Part shown: one piece after another, positions 37,183-42,637 of the stretch
Numbering within the stretch: the stretch's first letter is position 1
Layout of the letters: each line of letters begins with the position of its first letter
DNA from: Gammaproteobacteria bacterium
GTDB taxonomy: Bacteria > Pseudomonadota > Gammaproteobacteria > Burkholderiales > Gallionellaceae
Length of the DNA stretch: 64,000 bases
Assembly: GCA_018813765.1 (NCBI GenBank)
Contig: JAHJBC010000001.1
Span: forward strand, 62,001 to 126,000
Reading direction: 5' to 3'
Program-made: the position numbers and the translations under genes
Notes under the pieces: generated by a model
The model's database searches: none
What the model was told of the DNA's origin: nothing
Seen by the model: only the letters and a program-made list of their open reading frames with translations

Positions 37183-37791
37183 TCACCGATACAGCGCCGG
37201 AAAATCCCTGCGCAACCGGTCCAGCTTGGGCATGTCGTGGATCACGATGTAAGGCTGGTAAGGATGCAAAGCCAGATAATTCTGGTGATAGTCCTCCGCC
37301 GGATAGAACTGCACCAGCGGCACCACCTGCGTCACGATGGGCGAGGAATAGGTGCGCGCTGCAGTGAGTTCGCGGATGTATTCCCCCGCCGCTTTCTGTT
37401 GCGCGGCATCGACATGGAAGATCGCCGAGCGGTATTGCGTGCCCCTATCCGGCCCCTGACGGTTGAGCTGGGTCGGGTCGTGCGCCACGCTGAAGAACAC
37501 CTGCAGCAACTGGCGATAAGACACCTTGGCCGGATCGAAGCGCACGCGCACCGCCTCGGCATGGCCGCTCCTGCCCGTGCTCACCGCTTCGTAGTTCGCG
37601 TCCGCCGCACTGCCGCCCGCATAACCTGACTCCACGTTGGTCACGCCCTTGATGTGTTTGTACACCGCGTCCACGCCCCAGAAACAGCCGCCCGCAAACA
37701 CCGCAGTCTGCTCGGCCGCCTGCACGTTGGCAATCGCGCCCACGCCGAACGCGAGTAACGCACTGCTGAAGAATCGTTTGAAGGTACGCAT
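37183..37791 (-). CDS. msrA: MsrA, peptide methionine-S-sulfoxide reductase, exported
   Basis: Reduces S-methionine sulfoxide in proteins. 202 residues starting at 37791. A Sec signal peptide ([17 protein letters not shown], cut near residue 25) precedes the catalytic GGCFWG motif (Cys36), which is unusual because many MsrA proteins are cytoplasmic. The family blocks [25 protein letters not shown] and PAEDYHQNY follow. Located after dipZ (18 bases), which can feed electrons to periplasmic enzymes. The long upstream open frame over dipZ is not coding. Confidence 0.94.
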
Positions 37792-37808: not shown

Positions 37809-39494
37809 TTAACCGAAGGTGAAGGCGAACGCCTCCGCCCCGCCATCCGGAAACTCGATGCGGAAGGTCCGCTCTTTTATCGCACCGTTTTGCCGGATGA
37901 GTTGATACAGGCGCTGCTCGCGGATCACGCCGCTGCCCGCCACGTCGATATCGACGCCGTGATGCGCGCCGGGCGCGGCGCCGTCCAATGTGACCTTGAA
38001 GCGTAGCGGTTTGTTGCTGCCAAGCACCAGATGCAGGTCGCGTCCGAAGAAGCGGAAGGCGATCGCCCCGCTGCCGCGCTGTAGCGCGGCGGATTCCGGA
38101 CCGATCAACCAGTTCCCGCCCAATGCCCATTGATCGGCTTGCAACACGCGCGGTATCGAATAGTTGCCGGATGCATCGAGACGGACCTCTTCCGGCGAAA
38201 CAAAATTCTCCATGCGCGCATAGCCGAGATAGGTCTCGGGCGAACGTTCCGTCCCTGCGGCCGCTGCCATCGCGCCGGTTGCCTCCACCTGCACCGGCGC
38301 ATCGTCCAGTGCCAGGTCGCTGCGCGCCTCCATCAGCAGCGTCTGGATCATCTGCTCGGTCTCGACATAGGCGCCCTCGCCGAAATGGCGGTGGCGGATG
38401 CGTCCCTGCGCGTCGAGCAGATAGTGCGCGGGCCAATACTGGTTCTTGTAGGCGTTCCAGATCGCGTAGTCGTTATCGACCGCCACCGGATACTTCACGC
38501 CCAGTTCGCGCACCGCGCGTTCGACGTTCTTGATGTCCTTCTCGAAGGCGAACTCCGGCGCATGTACGCCGAGGATGACCAAGCCCTGCGCGCGATATTT
38601 TTCATCCCACGCTTTCAGGTAGGGCAGGGTGCGCAAGCAGTTGATGCAGGAATAGGTCCAGAAATCCACCAGCACCACCTTGCCGCGCAAGGACCCATCG
38701 CTTAACGGCGGCGTGTTGATCCAGTGCGTCGCGCCATTAAGCGGCGGCGCCATGACCGCTTCGCCTGCCTGCGGCGCAGGCGGCGCCAAGCTCTCGATCA
38801 GCCGCTGCTCGGTTGACGTGGTGTTGGCCGAGGTGAATTGCGCGAGGAAGCGCGTGTCCCAGCCCAGTGCGATGACCACGACGCCCGCCACCACCGCGAT
38901 ACCCAGCACGCGCCGTATCCATTCCTCGACGCCGAAATTGCGCTTCAGCCACGCGATCACGCGCCCGCCGGCCAGCAACGCCAGCGCCAGCGAAGAGGCG
39001 GCACCGGCCGCGAACGCCAACAGCAGCGATGCGCTGTACAGATTCGCGCCCTGCAAGGCCGCACCGGCCAGCACCAAGCCAAGTATCGGCCCGGCGCACG
39101 GCGCCCACAGGAAGCCGAGAGCCACGCCCAGCAGCAAGCCGCCCTTCACGCTGCCCTGCGCGTCGGCACGCTGCTGCAGATGTCCGCCGAACGAAACGAA
39201 CGGCCGCATCATGCGTTCCGACCAGGACGGGAAGATCAGTGCCAATCCCAACAACAGCAACAGCAGCATCGCCGCGTAGCGCCCGTACTGGTTCACCTCG
39301 ACCAGCCAGGCGCCGCCCACGGCAGCAAGGCTGGCCAGCACGGTGAAGGTCACCGCCATGCCAAACAGGATGGGCAGGCCGGCGCGGCGGAACGGCTGCT
39401 CTGAACGCGCGAACACGAAGGGCAGCACCGGCAGTACGCAGGGGCTGAGGATGGTGAGTGCGCCGCCGAGGTAAGCGAGCAGGAAGATCAGCAT
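37809..39494 (-). CDS. dipZ: DipZ-type thiol:disulfide transporter with periplasmic thioredoxin domain
   Basis: 561 residues in three parts. A CcdA/DsbD-like membrane domain (about 1-215, six helices) has the two electron-relay cysteines, Cys19 in LSPCVLPVLP and Cys133 in LWAPCAGPILG. A periplasmic thioredoxin-like domain (about 250-400) has the active-site Cys283-Ile-Asn-Cys286. The last 150 residues form a beta-rich DipZ C-terminal domain, carbohydrate-binding-like. It moves reducing power from the cytoplasm to the periplasm; flanked by exported MsrA and MsrB, whose reduction it most likely supports (inference). Confidence 0.9.
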   Translation of the reverse strand: MLIFLLAYLGGALTILSPCVLPVLPFVFARSEQPFRRAGLPILFGMAVTFTVLASLAAVGGAWLVEVNQYGRYAAMLLLLLLGLALIFPSWSERMMRPFVSFGGHLQQRADAQGSVKGGLLLGVALGFLWAPCAGPILGLVLAGAALQGANLYSASLLLAFAAGAASSLALALLAGGRVIAWLKRNFGVEEWIRRVLGIAVVAGVVVIALGWDTRFLAQFTSANTTSTEQRLIESLAPPAPQAGEAVMAPPLNGATHWINTPPLSDGSLRGKVVLVDFWTYSCINCLRTLPYLKAWDEKYRAQGLVILGVHAPEFAFEKDIKNVERAVRELGVKYPVAVDNDYAIWNAYKNQYWPAHYLLDAQGRIRHRHFGEGAYVETEQMIQTLLMEARSDLALDDAPVQVEATGAMAAAAGTERSPETYLGYARMENFVSPEEVRLDASGNYSIPRVLQADQWALGGNWLIGPESAALQRGSGAIAFRFFGRDLHLVLGSNKPLRFKVTLDGAAPGAHHGVDIDVAGSGVIREQRLYQLIRQNGAIKERTFRIEFPDGGAEAFAFTFG

Positions 39495-39535
39495 GGTTTG
39501 TTGTTCCTTGTAATCAGGGTAATTCCAAAACCTTG

Positions 39536-39628
39536 TTGTCCACGAAATTCACGAAAAGCACGAAAGGTTCGAATCACTCACATTCTGCAAATGGGTTTGT
39601 TCGTGGGTTTCGTGTTTTTCGTGGACAA
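39536..39628. repeat. Inverted repeat with TTCGTG / CACGAA units between msrB and dipZ
   Basis: Left arm TTGTCCACGAAATTCACGAA-AAGCACGAAA and right arm TTTCGTG-TTTTTCGTGGACAA face each other across about 35 bases. Similar TTCGTGxTTTTCGTGGACAA motifs are widespread intergenic repeats in bacterial genomes. It could form a stem within the msrB-dipZ mRNA. Confidence 0.7.
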
Positions 39629-39642
39629 ATTTCTTTCCTGGA

Positions 39643-40182
39643 CTATTTGGATTTCGGCACGAAGCGCAGCGCCACCGTGTTCATGCAATAACGCAGGCCG
39701 GTCGGCTTCGGACCGTCGTTGAACACATGGCCGAGATGCGCGTCGCACAGCGTGCAGCGTACTTCGGTGCGCACCATGCCGAACAGGCGGTCTTCGTGTT
39801 CGCGCACGTTCTCCGCCGCGATGGGTTGCCAGAAGCTGGGCCAGCCGGTGCCGGAATCGTATTTGGTCGCGGCATCGAACAGCGCGTTGTCGCAGCACAC
39901 GCAACGGTACAGCCCCGGCTCGTGCCGGTCGTGTCCCGGCTGCGAGAACGCGCGCTCGGTGCCCTGCTCGCGCGTCACGTGGTAGGCGAGCGGCGACAGG
40001 CGCTTTTTCCACTCGGCATCCTTGTACACCTTGGCCAGCGTGGCGCGCCCCAGCGGTTTGCCGTCGTCGGAGAACTGTATGATGGTCACCATGCCGCCGC
40101 CCGGTGCCGTCGCGGCGAACGAGCGTGTGGCATAGACCATGCCGATGCCGGAAAGCAGTGATAGAAATTGTCTGCGTTGCAT
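39643..40182 (-). CDS. msrB: MsrB, peptide methionine-R-sulfoxide reductase, Tat/Sec exported
   Basis: Reduces R-methionine sulfoxide. 179 residues from 40182 (GGAGG ribosome site). N-terminal twin-arginine signal ([10 protein letters not shown] ... SFAA) sends it out of the cytoplasm. Structural Zn cysteines 94/97 (CVCC) and 143/146 (CTLC), and catalytic Cys166 in [15 protein letters not shown] is the family hallmark. Preceded by a GTAACC-N16-CGAA promoter. Confidence 0.95.
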
Positions 40183-40244: not shown

Positions 40245-40270
40245 TTCGTACCCGATCGAAAAATGGTTAC
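40245..40270 (-). promoter_or_regulatory. ECF-type promoter GTAACC-N16-CGAA in front of msrB
   Basis: Minus-strand GTAACC (40265-40270), exactly 16 bases, CGAA (40245-40248), about 65-85 bases before the msrB ATG. Identical pattern and spacing as the one at 41425-41450. This is the type of promoter known for NrsF-controlled ECF sigma factors, e.g. SigF of Caulobacter. Confidence 0.75.
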
Positions 40271-40276
40271 TTCACC

Positions 40277-40990
40277 CTACCCGGCAAAGGGCGGCACACG
40301 CCCGACCAGCGCTTCGGCCAGCAGCAGTTCCTCGTCCGTATGGTTGGGCCTGGCCATGCGCGGTACATCATGGACGCATTGCCCCGGCTGACCCTCGCGG
40401 TAGATATGCAGCGGCCTGTCGTGATGCGCCGAATGTACGCTCAGTTTGCTCGTGCTGTCGCCATTGGCCTCGACATCCACATCGCCGTAGCAGGTGCAGA
40501 AGTAGGTCTTGTCCGGCCCGGCCTCGAGGTACACCCCGGTGCCGCGGATGCCGATGGTCGCGGTCGGCGTCTCGATGCGCATGCCCTTGTTGCGCGACAC
40601 CGACAGCAGCTTGCCCGCGAACAAGCTTAAACCGCCGATCAGCAGGGAGGTGAAGTCGTTTTCATCCTTCGGACGTATCTTCAGATGGCTGCCGCCTCGC
40701 AGCAACATCGCATGGTCGCCGACCACGAACACAAGCTCGCTGTTCTTGCCGGTCTTGACCGTATCGTTGGGACCGATGCGCGTGTTCTCATCCACCCGTT
40801 TGCCGTTCACCCACGCCTTGCCCCTCACCCGATACACCGATCGGGATGCGGGCAATCTCGGCGGCGGTGAAAAAATGGCGGCGACCGCCTTCGCCGCGGG
40901 CAGCATCGCCGTCAACACGCCTGCCGCCAAGCCCTGCAACAATCGCCTGCGCTGATGACCCGCCGCTTCAAGATTCTGGCACTGTTCCAT
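40277..40990 (-). CDS. FecR-domain exported protein
   Basis: 237 residues. A twin-arginine-like signal (HQRRRLLQGLAAG ... VAA, to about residue 37) is followed by a FecR domain: VRGKAWVNGKRVDENTRIGPNDTVKTG, SELVFVVGDHAMLLRGGSHLKI, then TATIGIRGTGVYLE. There is a CTC pair in FCTCYGD. It lacks the cytoplasmic anti-sigma part of true FecR, so it is more likely a periplasmic structural or sensing protein. Its 3' end holds the msrB promoter. Confidence 0.85.
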   Translation of the reverse strand: MEQCQNLEAAGHQRRRLLQGLAAGVLTAMLPAAKAVAAIFSPPPRLPASRSVYRVRGKAWVNGKRVDENTRIGPNDTVKTGKNSELVFVVGDHAMLLRGGSHLKIRPKDENDFTSLLIGGLSLFAGKLLSVSRNKGMRIETPTATIGIRGTGVYLEAGPDKTYFCTCYGDVDVEANGDSTSKLSVHSAHHDRPLHIYREGQPGQCVHDVPRMARPNHTDEELLLAEALVGRVPPFAG

Positions 40991-41065
40991 CTGTCCTCTC
41001 CCTTGTTATCGTCTGCTGTGCAACGGCAGATGCCTCGACCGTTGGAGACACCCGCCTTCGTGCTG

Positions 41066-41338
41066 TCACATGCCTTTGTCCTTGTTCATCGTGCCATCCT
41101 TCATCACGTCGTCCTTCTTCATCTCTTCCAGCTGTTTTGACTTCTTGCTCGTGATTTTCTTCTTGTCCATCTTGTCCTTGCTCATGGCATCCTTCTCCAT
41201 GGTGTCCTTGGTCATTGCATCCTTGGACATCATGTCCTTGCCCATGGCATCCTTGCTCATCACATGGTGGTCTGCCGCCGCAGTTTGGGCAAAAGCGGTC
41301 AGGCACAACGCCAGCAACAGTGTGGTCAGTTTGTTCAT
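41066..41338 (-). CDS. Pentapeptide MXKDX repeat protein, exported, Met-rich
   Basis: 90 residues from the ATG at 41338 (AAGGAGA upstream). Cleaved Sec signal (about 1-22, AAA cut), then about eight pentapeptides of the form M-x-K-D-x (VMSKD, AMGKD, MMSKD, AMTKD, TMEKD, AMSKD), then a Lys-rich part and a second group of MKKD/MKDG/MNKD units. More than a dozen exposed Met occur in the mature chain of some 68 residues. The family (MXKDX repeat proteins) has no known function; a Met sink for oxidants fits the neighbours (inference). Confidence 0.88.
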   Translation of the reverse strand: MNKLTTLLLALCLTAFAQTAAADHHVMSKDAMGKDMMSKDAMTKDTMEKDAMSKDKMDKKKITSKKSKQLEEMKKDDVMKDGTMNKDKGM

Positions 41339-41424
41339 TTGAATCTCCTTGAATGATTGATGGTATCGTCGCGGAGGTGAGGATGCTGTGGCAACAGCCA
41401 TCTCAAACCGTCTGCGACACTATG

Positions 41425-41450
41425 TTCGGAGCACGCCGGAAAAAGGTTAC
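41425..41450 (-). promoter_or_regulatory. ECF-type promoter GTAACC-N16-CGAA in front of the MXKDX gene
   Basis: Minus-strand GTAACC (41445-41450), exactly 16 bases, CGAA (41425-41428), in the 124-base divergent spacer between the MXKDX gene and the sigma-factor gene. Leader length to the ATG about 80 bases. Confidence 0.78.
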
Positions 41451-41462
41451 ACAGGCATTCAT

Positions 41463-42005
41463 ATGACAAACCGGGACGACAATCTGGAAGACCTCATGCG
41501 CCAGTCCCTGGCCGGGGACCAGCGCGCCTACGCCGAACTGTTGCGCGCGACCGCGCGCCTGCTCAAGCCCTTCCTGTCCAATCGCCTGCGCCAATCCGGC
41601 GAGGTGGACGACCTGCTGCAGGAGATATTGCTCTCCATCCACAAGGCCCGCCACACCTACGACGGCCAGCGCCCCTACAAACCCTGGGCCTACGCCATCG
41701 CCAAGTTCCGCCTGCTCGACCATCTGCGCGCGCACTACGCGGATCGCCTGCGCGACGCCGAGGACTACGACGAACTGGAAGAGATATTGCCCGATGATGT
41801 AACCGAAACCGGGATGAGCTACGAATCAATAAGCGCGGAGGTAGAGAAACTGCCAGAGAAGCAGGCAACCATCCTGCGCCTAATGCACCATGACGGCTAC
41901 ACCGCCAGGGAGGTCGCGGCGAAAATGGGCATGAACGAATCGGCGGTGAAAGTAGCAGCGCATCGCGCCTACAAGATCTTGCGAGAAAGGCTGGAGCGAC
42001 AATGA
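41463..42005 (+). CDS. ECF-type RNA polymerase sigma factor
   Basis: 180 residues from the ATG at 41463. Region 2 shows ARLLKPFLSNRLR ... EVDDLLQEILLSIHKARHTYD ... PWAYAIAKFRLLDHLR; region 4 is LPEKQATILRLMHHDGYTAREVAAKMGMNESAVKVAAHRAYK with a clear helix-turn-helix. The next gene, overlapping by four bases, is an NrsF-type anti-sigma factor, so it is of the SigF/EcfF type that responds to oxidants or metals. The likely targets are the two GTAACC-N16-CGAA promoters nearby. Confidence 0.93.
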   Translation: MTNRDDNLEDLMRQSLAGDQRAYAELLRATARLLKPFLSNRLRQSGEVDDLLQEILLSIHKARHTYDGQRPYKPWAYAIAKFRLLDHLRAHYADRLRDAEDYDELEEILPDDVTETGMSYESISAEVEKLPEKQATILRLMHHDGYTAREVAAKMGMNESAVKVAAHRAYKILRERLERQ

Positions 42006-42637
42006 ACGACATCGAACAACTGATAGCGGGCCTGAGCAAGGACGTGCAGCCGGTGAAACCCGCGCTGCACCCGTACAAGCTGAGCCTGCAATGGATAGGC
42101 GCCGCCGCGCTCTACCTGCTCGTCACACTCGCGCTCACCGGCCTGCGCCCGGACTGGCACGAGAGTTTCGTCGAACCGTGGTTCGTCGCCGAGATCGCCA
42201 CCCTGTTCGCGCTGTTCATCGTCACCGCACTCAGCACTGCCCTGCTCGCCTTCCCCGACCTGCACCAGAAACGCCTGCTCGCTTACGCGCCGCTGGTACC
42301 CGCCGTCCTGTTCGTGGCCGTGATCCTGTCGGCCGCGCTTGCCGACACCCCGCCCGCGCCCCTACCAGAACACAGCATCGAATGCACCTGCAGCATCCTG
42401 CTGACCATGCTGCTGCCCGCGCTGTGGACGTTCTATTCGCTGCGCAGATACGCCAGCACCCACTATCGCCTCGCCGGCAGCATCGCACTGCTCTCCGCGT
42501 TCAGCGTTGGCGCCTTGTGGTTACGCTTGCACGAAGTCAACGACTCCATCGCGCATGTGGTTGAGTGGCATTACCTGCCGATGCTCGGAGTGGGATTGCT
42601 GGGGTTGTGGCTGGGGAATCGATTGCTGAAGTGGTAG
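42002..42637 (+). CDS. NrsF-type (DUF1109) membrane anti-sigma factor
   Basis: 211 residues, about six membrane helices. The cytoplasmic N-terminal segment (MNDIEQLIAGLSKDVQPVKP) is the usual sigma-binding start. Only two Cys are present, Cys128 and Cys130 in IECTCSILL, placed where the family has conserved cysteines used for sensing. ATGA-type overlap with the sigma gene. Expected to hold the sigma factor inactive until its cysteines react (established for relatives, inferred here). Confidence 0.88.
   Translation: MNDIEQLIAGLSKDVQPVKPALHPYKLSLQWIGAAALYLLVTLALTGLRPDWHESFVEPWFVAEIATLFALFIVTALSTALLAFPDLHQKRLLAYAPLVPAVLFVAVILSAALADTPPAPLPEHSIECTCSILLTMLLPALWTFYSLRRYASTHYRLAGSIALLSAFSVGALWLRLHEVNDSIAHVVEWHYLPMLGVGLLGLWLGNRLLKW

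Follow-up and report, generated by a model that had tools for sequence, protein, structure and literature searches.

A promoter-like element conserved within sigF may direct anti-sigma feedback in an NrsF-partnered methionine-repair locus

The sigma factor SigF of Caulobacter, an extracytoplasmic function (ECF) sigma factor partnered by the anti-sigma factor NrsF, uses promoters of the type GTAACC-N16-CGAA (N, any base; PMC3511200). A promoter upstream of the sigma gene itself is described for four ECF16 systems, those of Caulobacter (PMC3511200), Bradyrhizobium (EcfF; PMC3420878), Sinorhizobium (RpoE7; PMC6180224) and Brucella (PMC8315932). Here we analysed a window of 64,000 nucleotides from a Gallionellaceae genome (assembly GCA_018813765.1, contig JAHJBC010000001.1, positions 62,001 to 126,000), in which a SigF-like sigma gene, sigF, and nrsF adjoin a cluster of genes for periplasmic methionine repair. 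Its subject is a promoter-like element, TGTAACC-N17-CGAAT, which is located inside the coding sequence of sigF and directed at nrsF.

Several described systems resemble this locus. Caulobacter SigF/NrsF shares with it the NrsF-family anti-sigma factor and the promoter type, and has the DUF2282/DUF692 targets that are met in relatives of the locus. In Caulobacter, however, sigF has an upstream promoter, and Cys131 and Cys181 of NrsF are conserved; in the clade defined below the upstream promoter is absent (0/66) and the second cysteine is rare (3/66). In the BcrS/AbcS/BcrXQP system of Brucella, the same type of promoter serves BcrS to express MsrPQ and a divergent MXKDX gene (PMC8315932). The divergent MXKDX gene, the TGTAACCTTTTT...CGAA promoter adjoining the sigma gene and the methionine-sulfoxide reductases are common to both, yet Brucella has MsrPQ instead of MsrA, MsrB and DipZ, and bcrS is autoregulated and carries an upstream motif of its own. 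Azospira-type islands combine SigF/NrsF with the methionine-rich peptide MrpX and the reductase system YedYZ, while some perchlorate islands have exported MsrA/MsrB (PMC4623255); here the difference is that the system is located in perchlorate reduction islands. EcfF of Bradyrhizobium, an ECF16 sigma factor with the DUF1109 anti-sigma factor OsrA, controls three methionine-sulfoxide reductases together with a thioredoxin and a DsbD-core membrane protein (PMC3420878). Its promoter lies upstream of ecfF, and OsrA carries C179 where the clade has Glu. Thus, an NrsF-partnered sigma factor with a methionine-repair cluster is already known in kind. The new part is the conserved motif copy inside the sigma gene.

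MseR of Neisseria meningitidis belongs to a different anti-sigma family from NrsF. As an ECF sigma/anti-sigma pair driving msrA/msrB, Sigma E/MseR is similar, but positive feedback there acts on the entire sigma operon (PMC3240639). The nearest proven circuit is that of SigH/RshA in Corynebacterium glutamicum. The sigH-rshA pair is transcribed from housekeeping promoters, and a SigH-dependent promoter inside sigH, PrshA, transcribes rshA alone (PMC3489674). As in our locus, an ECF-sigma-type promoter sequence within the sigma coding region is aimed at the anti-sigma gene; the families of sigma and anti-sigma factor, the Gram-positive host and the promoter sequence are different. Northern blot and primer extension have established PrshA; for the sigF element the evidence is sequence conservation. 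Among the papers listed in searches of open-licence literature, none reported a conserved intragenic anti-sigma promoter for NrsF systems, and PMC3489674 was the one direct precedent.

A search of 158 genomes of the family, by locus names the Gallionellaceae (Gallionella, Sideroxydans, Nitrotoga and others), gave NrsF relatives in 58. The 58 loci were compared together with two stretches of the own genome; NrsF loci from class- and phylum-wide searches were added, and also 80 named loci, the best 80 of 133. By pairwise identity to the window sigma factor, the NrsF-linked sigma factors split into two groups separated by a gap (≥54% versus ≤39%), and a search across the order divided them in the same bimodal way. 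The group with at least 54% identity, 142 sequences, is called the clade; thinning to less than 85% nucleotide identity left 66 genes. It comprises mainly Gallionellaceae, with Sulfuricella, Rhodocyclales and some alphaproteobacterial metagenome-assembled genomes. The 68 NrsF-linked loci of the other group were used unthinned as the distant comparison set.

The intragenic element was first met when the loci of relatives were scanned, as GTAACC-N17-CGAA on the plus strand upstream of nrsF. The first-pass annotation had stated that the motif is absent from the sigma gene itself; this holds for the upstream region and fails for the coding sequence. The element is written in the codons GTA-ACC-GAA (V113, T114, E115) and TAC-GAA (Y120, E121), in the stretch that separates sigma region 2 (Pfam match 26-91) from region 4 (122-171). 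Of the 66 clade genes, 59 have the element exactly; when synonymous codons were shuffled within each gene, 3.85 genes on average and 11 at most had it (1000 trials). Among 49 non-redundant genes of the family, codon identity of at least 95% was reached, out of 106 testable columns, only in the five codons of the element, and in the 66-gene set four of these five top the 99 testable columns. As a control, this arrangement of codons was looked for at all other places in the gene; it was found in at most 25 of 66 genes, compared with 57 of 66 at the element. At codon 112 the clade has nine different amino acids, yet the third base is T in 62 of 66 genes (27.0 expected); codon 115 encodes eight, with A as third base in 62 of 66 (38.7 expected). 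Where Tyr120 is changed to Phe, TTC is used, which preserves CGAA. Because wobble bases are held where amino acids differ, DNA and not only protein is conserved.

On a tree built without the element region the third positions of the element changed 1-4 times, compared with a gene median of 18. In a set of genes with less than 75% identity the element was exact in 23 of 27, with pairwise protein identity down to 49%. The two T's flanking the element are also the consensus bases of 58 intergenic sites, of which 95% have T in front of GTAACC and 91% have T behind CGAA. The extended N17 pattern occurred at 27 sites in 22 of 34 genomes of the genus; 19 of these were the sigF element sequence and eight lay elsewhere. 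In an order-wide sample outside the family 13 clade loci were located, 12 with the exact element and one with a single mismatch; 8 of the 30 loci were not located, and the sample is not independent in so far as some of its genomes are also among the best 80 of 133. The intragenic form was found in none of the 68 distant loci. Motif, orientation, spacing and a conservation of the DNA beyond the needs of the protein thus characterize this stretch of sigF. Degraded elements were seen in the clade genes of L044, L078/L230, L090/L258 and L065/L265, both halves being altered in L090 and L065.

A motif upstream of sigF was then sought over up to 400 bp. GTAACC-N16-CGAA in the direction of sigF was found there in 0 of 66 clade loci, even with one mismatch allowed (65 of the 66 have at least 200 bp in this region). 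In the distant set 14 of 68 loci had it exactly and 31 of 68 with one mismatch. The order-wide sample gave 0 of 13 located clade loci and 4 of 6 located distant loci. Nor was a sigma-70 promoter for sigF found between 37000 and 42800, where 1.3 are expected by chance. The simplest reading is that sigma feedback here acts on the anti-sigma factor alone.

The cysteines of NrsF differ as well. The first-pass annotation had called a two-Cys NrsF. Both residues, C128 and C130, are present in the window protein, but only C128 is conserved: it is retained in 61 of 66 clade proteins, whereas the position of C130 is Cys in 6 of 66. The position of the second cysteine of described systems (C181 in Caulobacter, C179 in Bradyrhizobium) is Glu in 61 and Cys in 3 of the 66, compared with Cys in 56 of 68 more distant relatives. 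All cysteine counts are lower bounds since the rule for choosing the NrsF reading frame took some wrong frames (e.g. in L118). In Bradyrhizobium C179 of OsrA is required for the peroxide response (PMC3420878). With the second cysteine replaced by Glu, sensing in the clade probably differs from that of OsrA. We keep the locus out of ECF16/SigF proper because the second cysteine and the upstream promoter of the sigma gene are missing. Even so, it would behave as an NrsF-type switch.

We consider it likely, on the strength of these comparisons, that the intragenic element is a promoter which drives nrsF within an NrsF-partnered methionine-repair switch, so that free sigma factor would raise the anti-sigma factor and not itself. 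SigF and the membrane-bound NrsF would control a periplasmic repair set consisting of the methionine-rich MXKDX protein as a sink, a FecR-like protein, MsrB and perhaps DipZ and MsrA, transcribed from TGTAACC-N16-CGAAT-type promoters. Stress would release the sigma factor and the repair genes would fire. The freed sigma factor would also use the intragenic promoter and thereby replenish its inhibitor without making extra sigma factor, i.e. the switch would have a built-in brake. Three points are inferred: SigF-RNA polymerase starts at the element, NrsF is made from the resulting transcript, and feedback behaves in this manner. Possibly, the autoregulatory promoter, once located before the sigma gene, was shifted to a place within the coding sequence; with N17 it would be weaker than the N16 target promoters, the brake would engage only after the repair genes, and the shift would accompany the loss of the classic sensing cysteine. 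On this joint reading our judgement is evenly balanced.

A number of observations weigh against a promoter at this site. T114 is not among the top five columns of the 66-gene set (60 of 64 ACC, 93.8%), and two Gln columns outside the element rank ahead of it with 93.9%. Columns 53, 177 and 134, also outside, change as rarely as the element, 3-4 times. The own genome has one other match to the extended N17 pattern, in a coding region. The element is not exact in seven of the 66 genes; two of the seven have GTAACT instead (L261, L262), which L334 likewise carries. Since GTAACT is also the form at six of eight conserved msrB promoters, elements of this kind may still work. Finally, the spacing is N17 in all 59 intragenic sites and N16 in all 33 divergent sites upstream of sigF, the T-rich tract that follows GTAACC at intergenic sites is replaced by mostly GAA, and of five N17 sites outside sigF only two lie before plausible targets.

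The uniform N17 and the missing T-rich tract are what would be expected if the element bound SigF-RNA polymerase without a productive start, as a decoy or roadblock which titrates the sigma factor or tunes elongation into nrsF; N17 would then make a deliberately poor promoter. Against this, both hexamers and both flanking T's are retained and oriented to nrsF, and N17 sites of normal layout precede a DUF692-like gene in L245 (GTAACCTTTTTTTT...CGAA, assigned by eye) and, at a distance of 18 bases, a DUF1223 gene in L261 (GTAACCATT...CGAA). In addition, the spacing of the Bradyrhizobium EcfF promoters varies by one base (PMC3420878). Taken together, these two sites and the EcfF variation make N17 plausible as a promoter spacing, and we regard a decoy or roadblock as unlikely, though worth keeping in mind. 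The position of the element between sigma regions 2 and 4 would also suit codons that are fixed for translation or RNA reasons, such as a pause at the domain linker or an RNA element, the likeness to a promoter being accidental. But TGTAACC and CGAA are exactly the known promoter of the same sigma group, the wobble T of codon 112 is held across nine amino acids, the bases between the two halves vary freely and the element is absent from all 68 distant homologues; this explanation is quite improbable. Lastly, the locus might be an ordinary ECF16/SigF-NrsF regulon whose response is unaffected by the intragenic element. The genes of the cluster and their N16 promoters do fit published systems (PMC8315932, PMC4623255), and the overlap of sigF and nrsF already couples the two genes. 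Conservation down to 49% protein identity implies a selected effect, however, and the sensing cysteine is missing, which leaves very little room for this view. A product consisting of sigma region 4 only, made from an internal transcript, was also considered; by eye no convincing start site was seen.

The features of the locus are collected in Table 1; gene content was checked by Pfam and NCBIfam profile matches.

Table 1. Positions of the genes and motifs of the sigF-nrsF locus in the window.
Feature	Position	Strand	Description
Promoter-like element TGTAACC-N17-CGAAT	41798..41826	+	inside sigF; directed at nrsF, 175 bases before its start codon
sigF	41463..42005	+	ECF sigma factor, 180 aa; Pfam Sigma70_r2, r4_2 and ECF matches; open frame
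nrsF	42002..42637	+	NrsF-family (DUF1109) membrane anti-sigma factor; PF06532, 151 bits
GTAACC-N16-CGAA promoter of the MXKDX gene	41425..41450	-	exact motif match; divergent from sigF
MXKDX gene	41066..41338	-	Met-rich exported protein, 90 aa; TIGR02953, 46.3 bits (cut-off 41)
FecR-like gene	40277..40990	-	exported protein; PF04773, 22.6 bits, just below the Pfam cut-off of 24
GTAACC-N16-CGAA promoter of msrB	40245..40270	-	exact motif match
msrB	39643..40182	-	PF01641, TIGR00357; twin-arginine-like signal (MQRRQFL), read from sequence
dipZ	37809..39494	-	DsbD-type membrane domain fused to thioredoxin-like domains; PF13386, PF02683, PF00578, PF17991
msrA	37183..37791	-	PF01625, TIGR00401; start resembles a signal peptide

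The reading frames of sigF and nrsF share 4 bases, and this nrsF encodes the sole NrsF of the genome. The protein scores 31.2 bits against the NCBIfam NrsF equivalog, which has a cut-off of 300, and its hydropathy profile has five distinct peaks at the threshold used; six transmembrane segments are a feature of the ECF16/SigF-NrsF group. Past its signal-like stretch the MXKDX protein has 68 residues, among them 12 Met, 18 Lys and 12 Asp. The FecR-like gene, which sits between the MXKDX gene and msrB, was absent from the first-pass description. A terminator-like hairpin with a T run lies near its start (40878-40897, minus strand), so that transcription from the MXKDX promoter might be damped; in the region scanned 10 such sites were found and 4.6 were expected. 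A long inverted repeat with CACGAAA-type units occupies 39500-39645 (minus strand) between msrB and dipZ. The fold has an energy of -45 kcal/mol (z -5.29; 0 of 200 shuffles), and the repeat may restrict read-through or may be one of a dispersed kind. The proposal that transcription continues from msrB into dipZ and msrA is not supported with this repeat in between.

Both N16 sites are present exactly as the first-pass annotation had reported them. They are the only ones in the window, and both are on the minus strand (0.04 expected; two or more in 1 of 100 shuffles). In the whole genome (3.14 Mb, 13 contigs) the motif has five matches and a reversed control pattern two. The motif alone is near background in the genome, and the case therefore rests on conservation; genome-wide matches were dropped as evidence for a regulon. 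A dispersed set of msr, DUF2282 and MXKDX genes, for which a genome-wide search had been suggested, did not appear among the five. Of the three matches outside the window, those on contigs C2 and C12 overlap long open reading frames and are read as chance. The third, on contig C10, lies in front of genes for an exported thioredoxin and then a CcdA-like protein; one of eight other orthologous loci located has the site, with one mismatch, and three more were not located. In L004 (661-1980) the C10 site lies between divergent genes, one of which encodes a cytochrome-c-like protein with NPCAA repeats and a SoxA/TsdA-type domain. An ECF-sigma-like frame lies nearby, and the C10 promoter may for this reason belong to another regulator. 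The extended pattern TGTAACC-N16-CGAAT matched in 12 of the 34 genus genomes and was rejected for regulon searches as too strict: the own genome has no match because both window sites end in CGAAC.

In relatives the N16 sites are conserved. Within 400 bp upstream of sigF the divergent site is exact in 33 of 66 loci and present with one mismatch in 54 of 66; no exact match at any other spacing from 12 to 21 was found in these regions. Eleven loci were examined at msrB: eight have a site, exact or with a single mismatch, 87-88 bases upstream of the msrB match, and L038, L040 and L041 have none. The genes behind N16 sites include those for MXKDX, MsrB, MsrA, DUF2282 (bufferin-like) and BufB-type proteins, and further DoxX, DsbD-like, catalase-like and spondin-domain proteins. 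They were assigned by eye, with representatives identified by profile matches; downstream genes were called by a simple longest-open-reading-frame rule, several calls being in a wrong frame or without a frame, and totals per class are accordingly not given. One Met-rich protein behind an N16 site (L080) had no family match. In L082 and other relatives the sites precede DUF2282 and BufB-type (bufferin) genes, which links methionine repair with metal-chelating peptides in these organisms. The view of an NrsF-partnered ECF sigma factor with SigF-type promoters before MXKDX and msrB is thus supported and extends to relatives; the earlier regulon interpretation is partly supported as a whole, and the regulon is sound in kind.

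Intragenic promoters are often dismissed as noise. Here such a sequence has kept its synonymous positions throughout a clade. It lies beside the cognate sigma factor, and as the consensus of that factor is known, silent mutations alone suffice to test what the sequence does. The oxidant-sensing cysteine of OsrA is absent from this branch of NrsF, and another sensing chemistry is likely. If the proposed role of the element is true, an entire clade swaps feedback on the sigma operon for feedback on the anti-sigma factor only in its response to oxidants.

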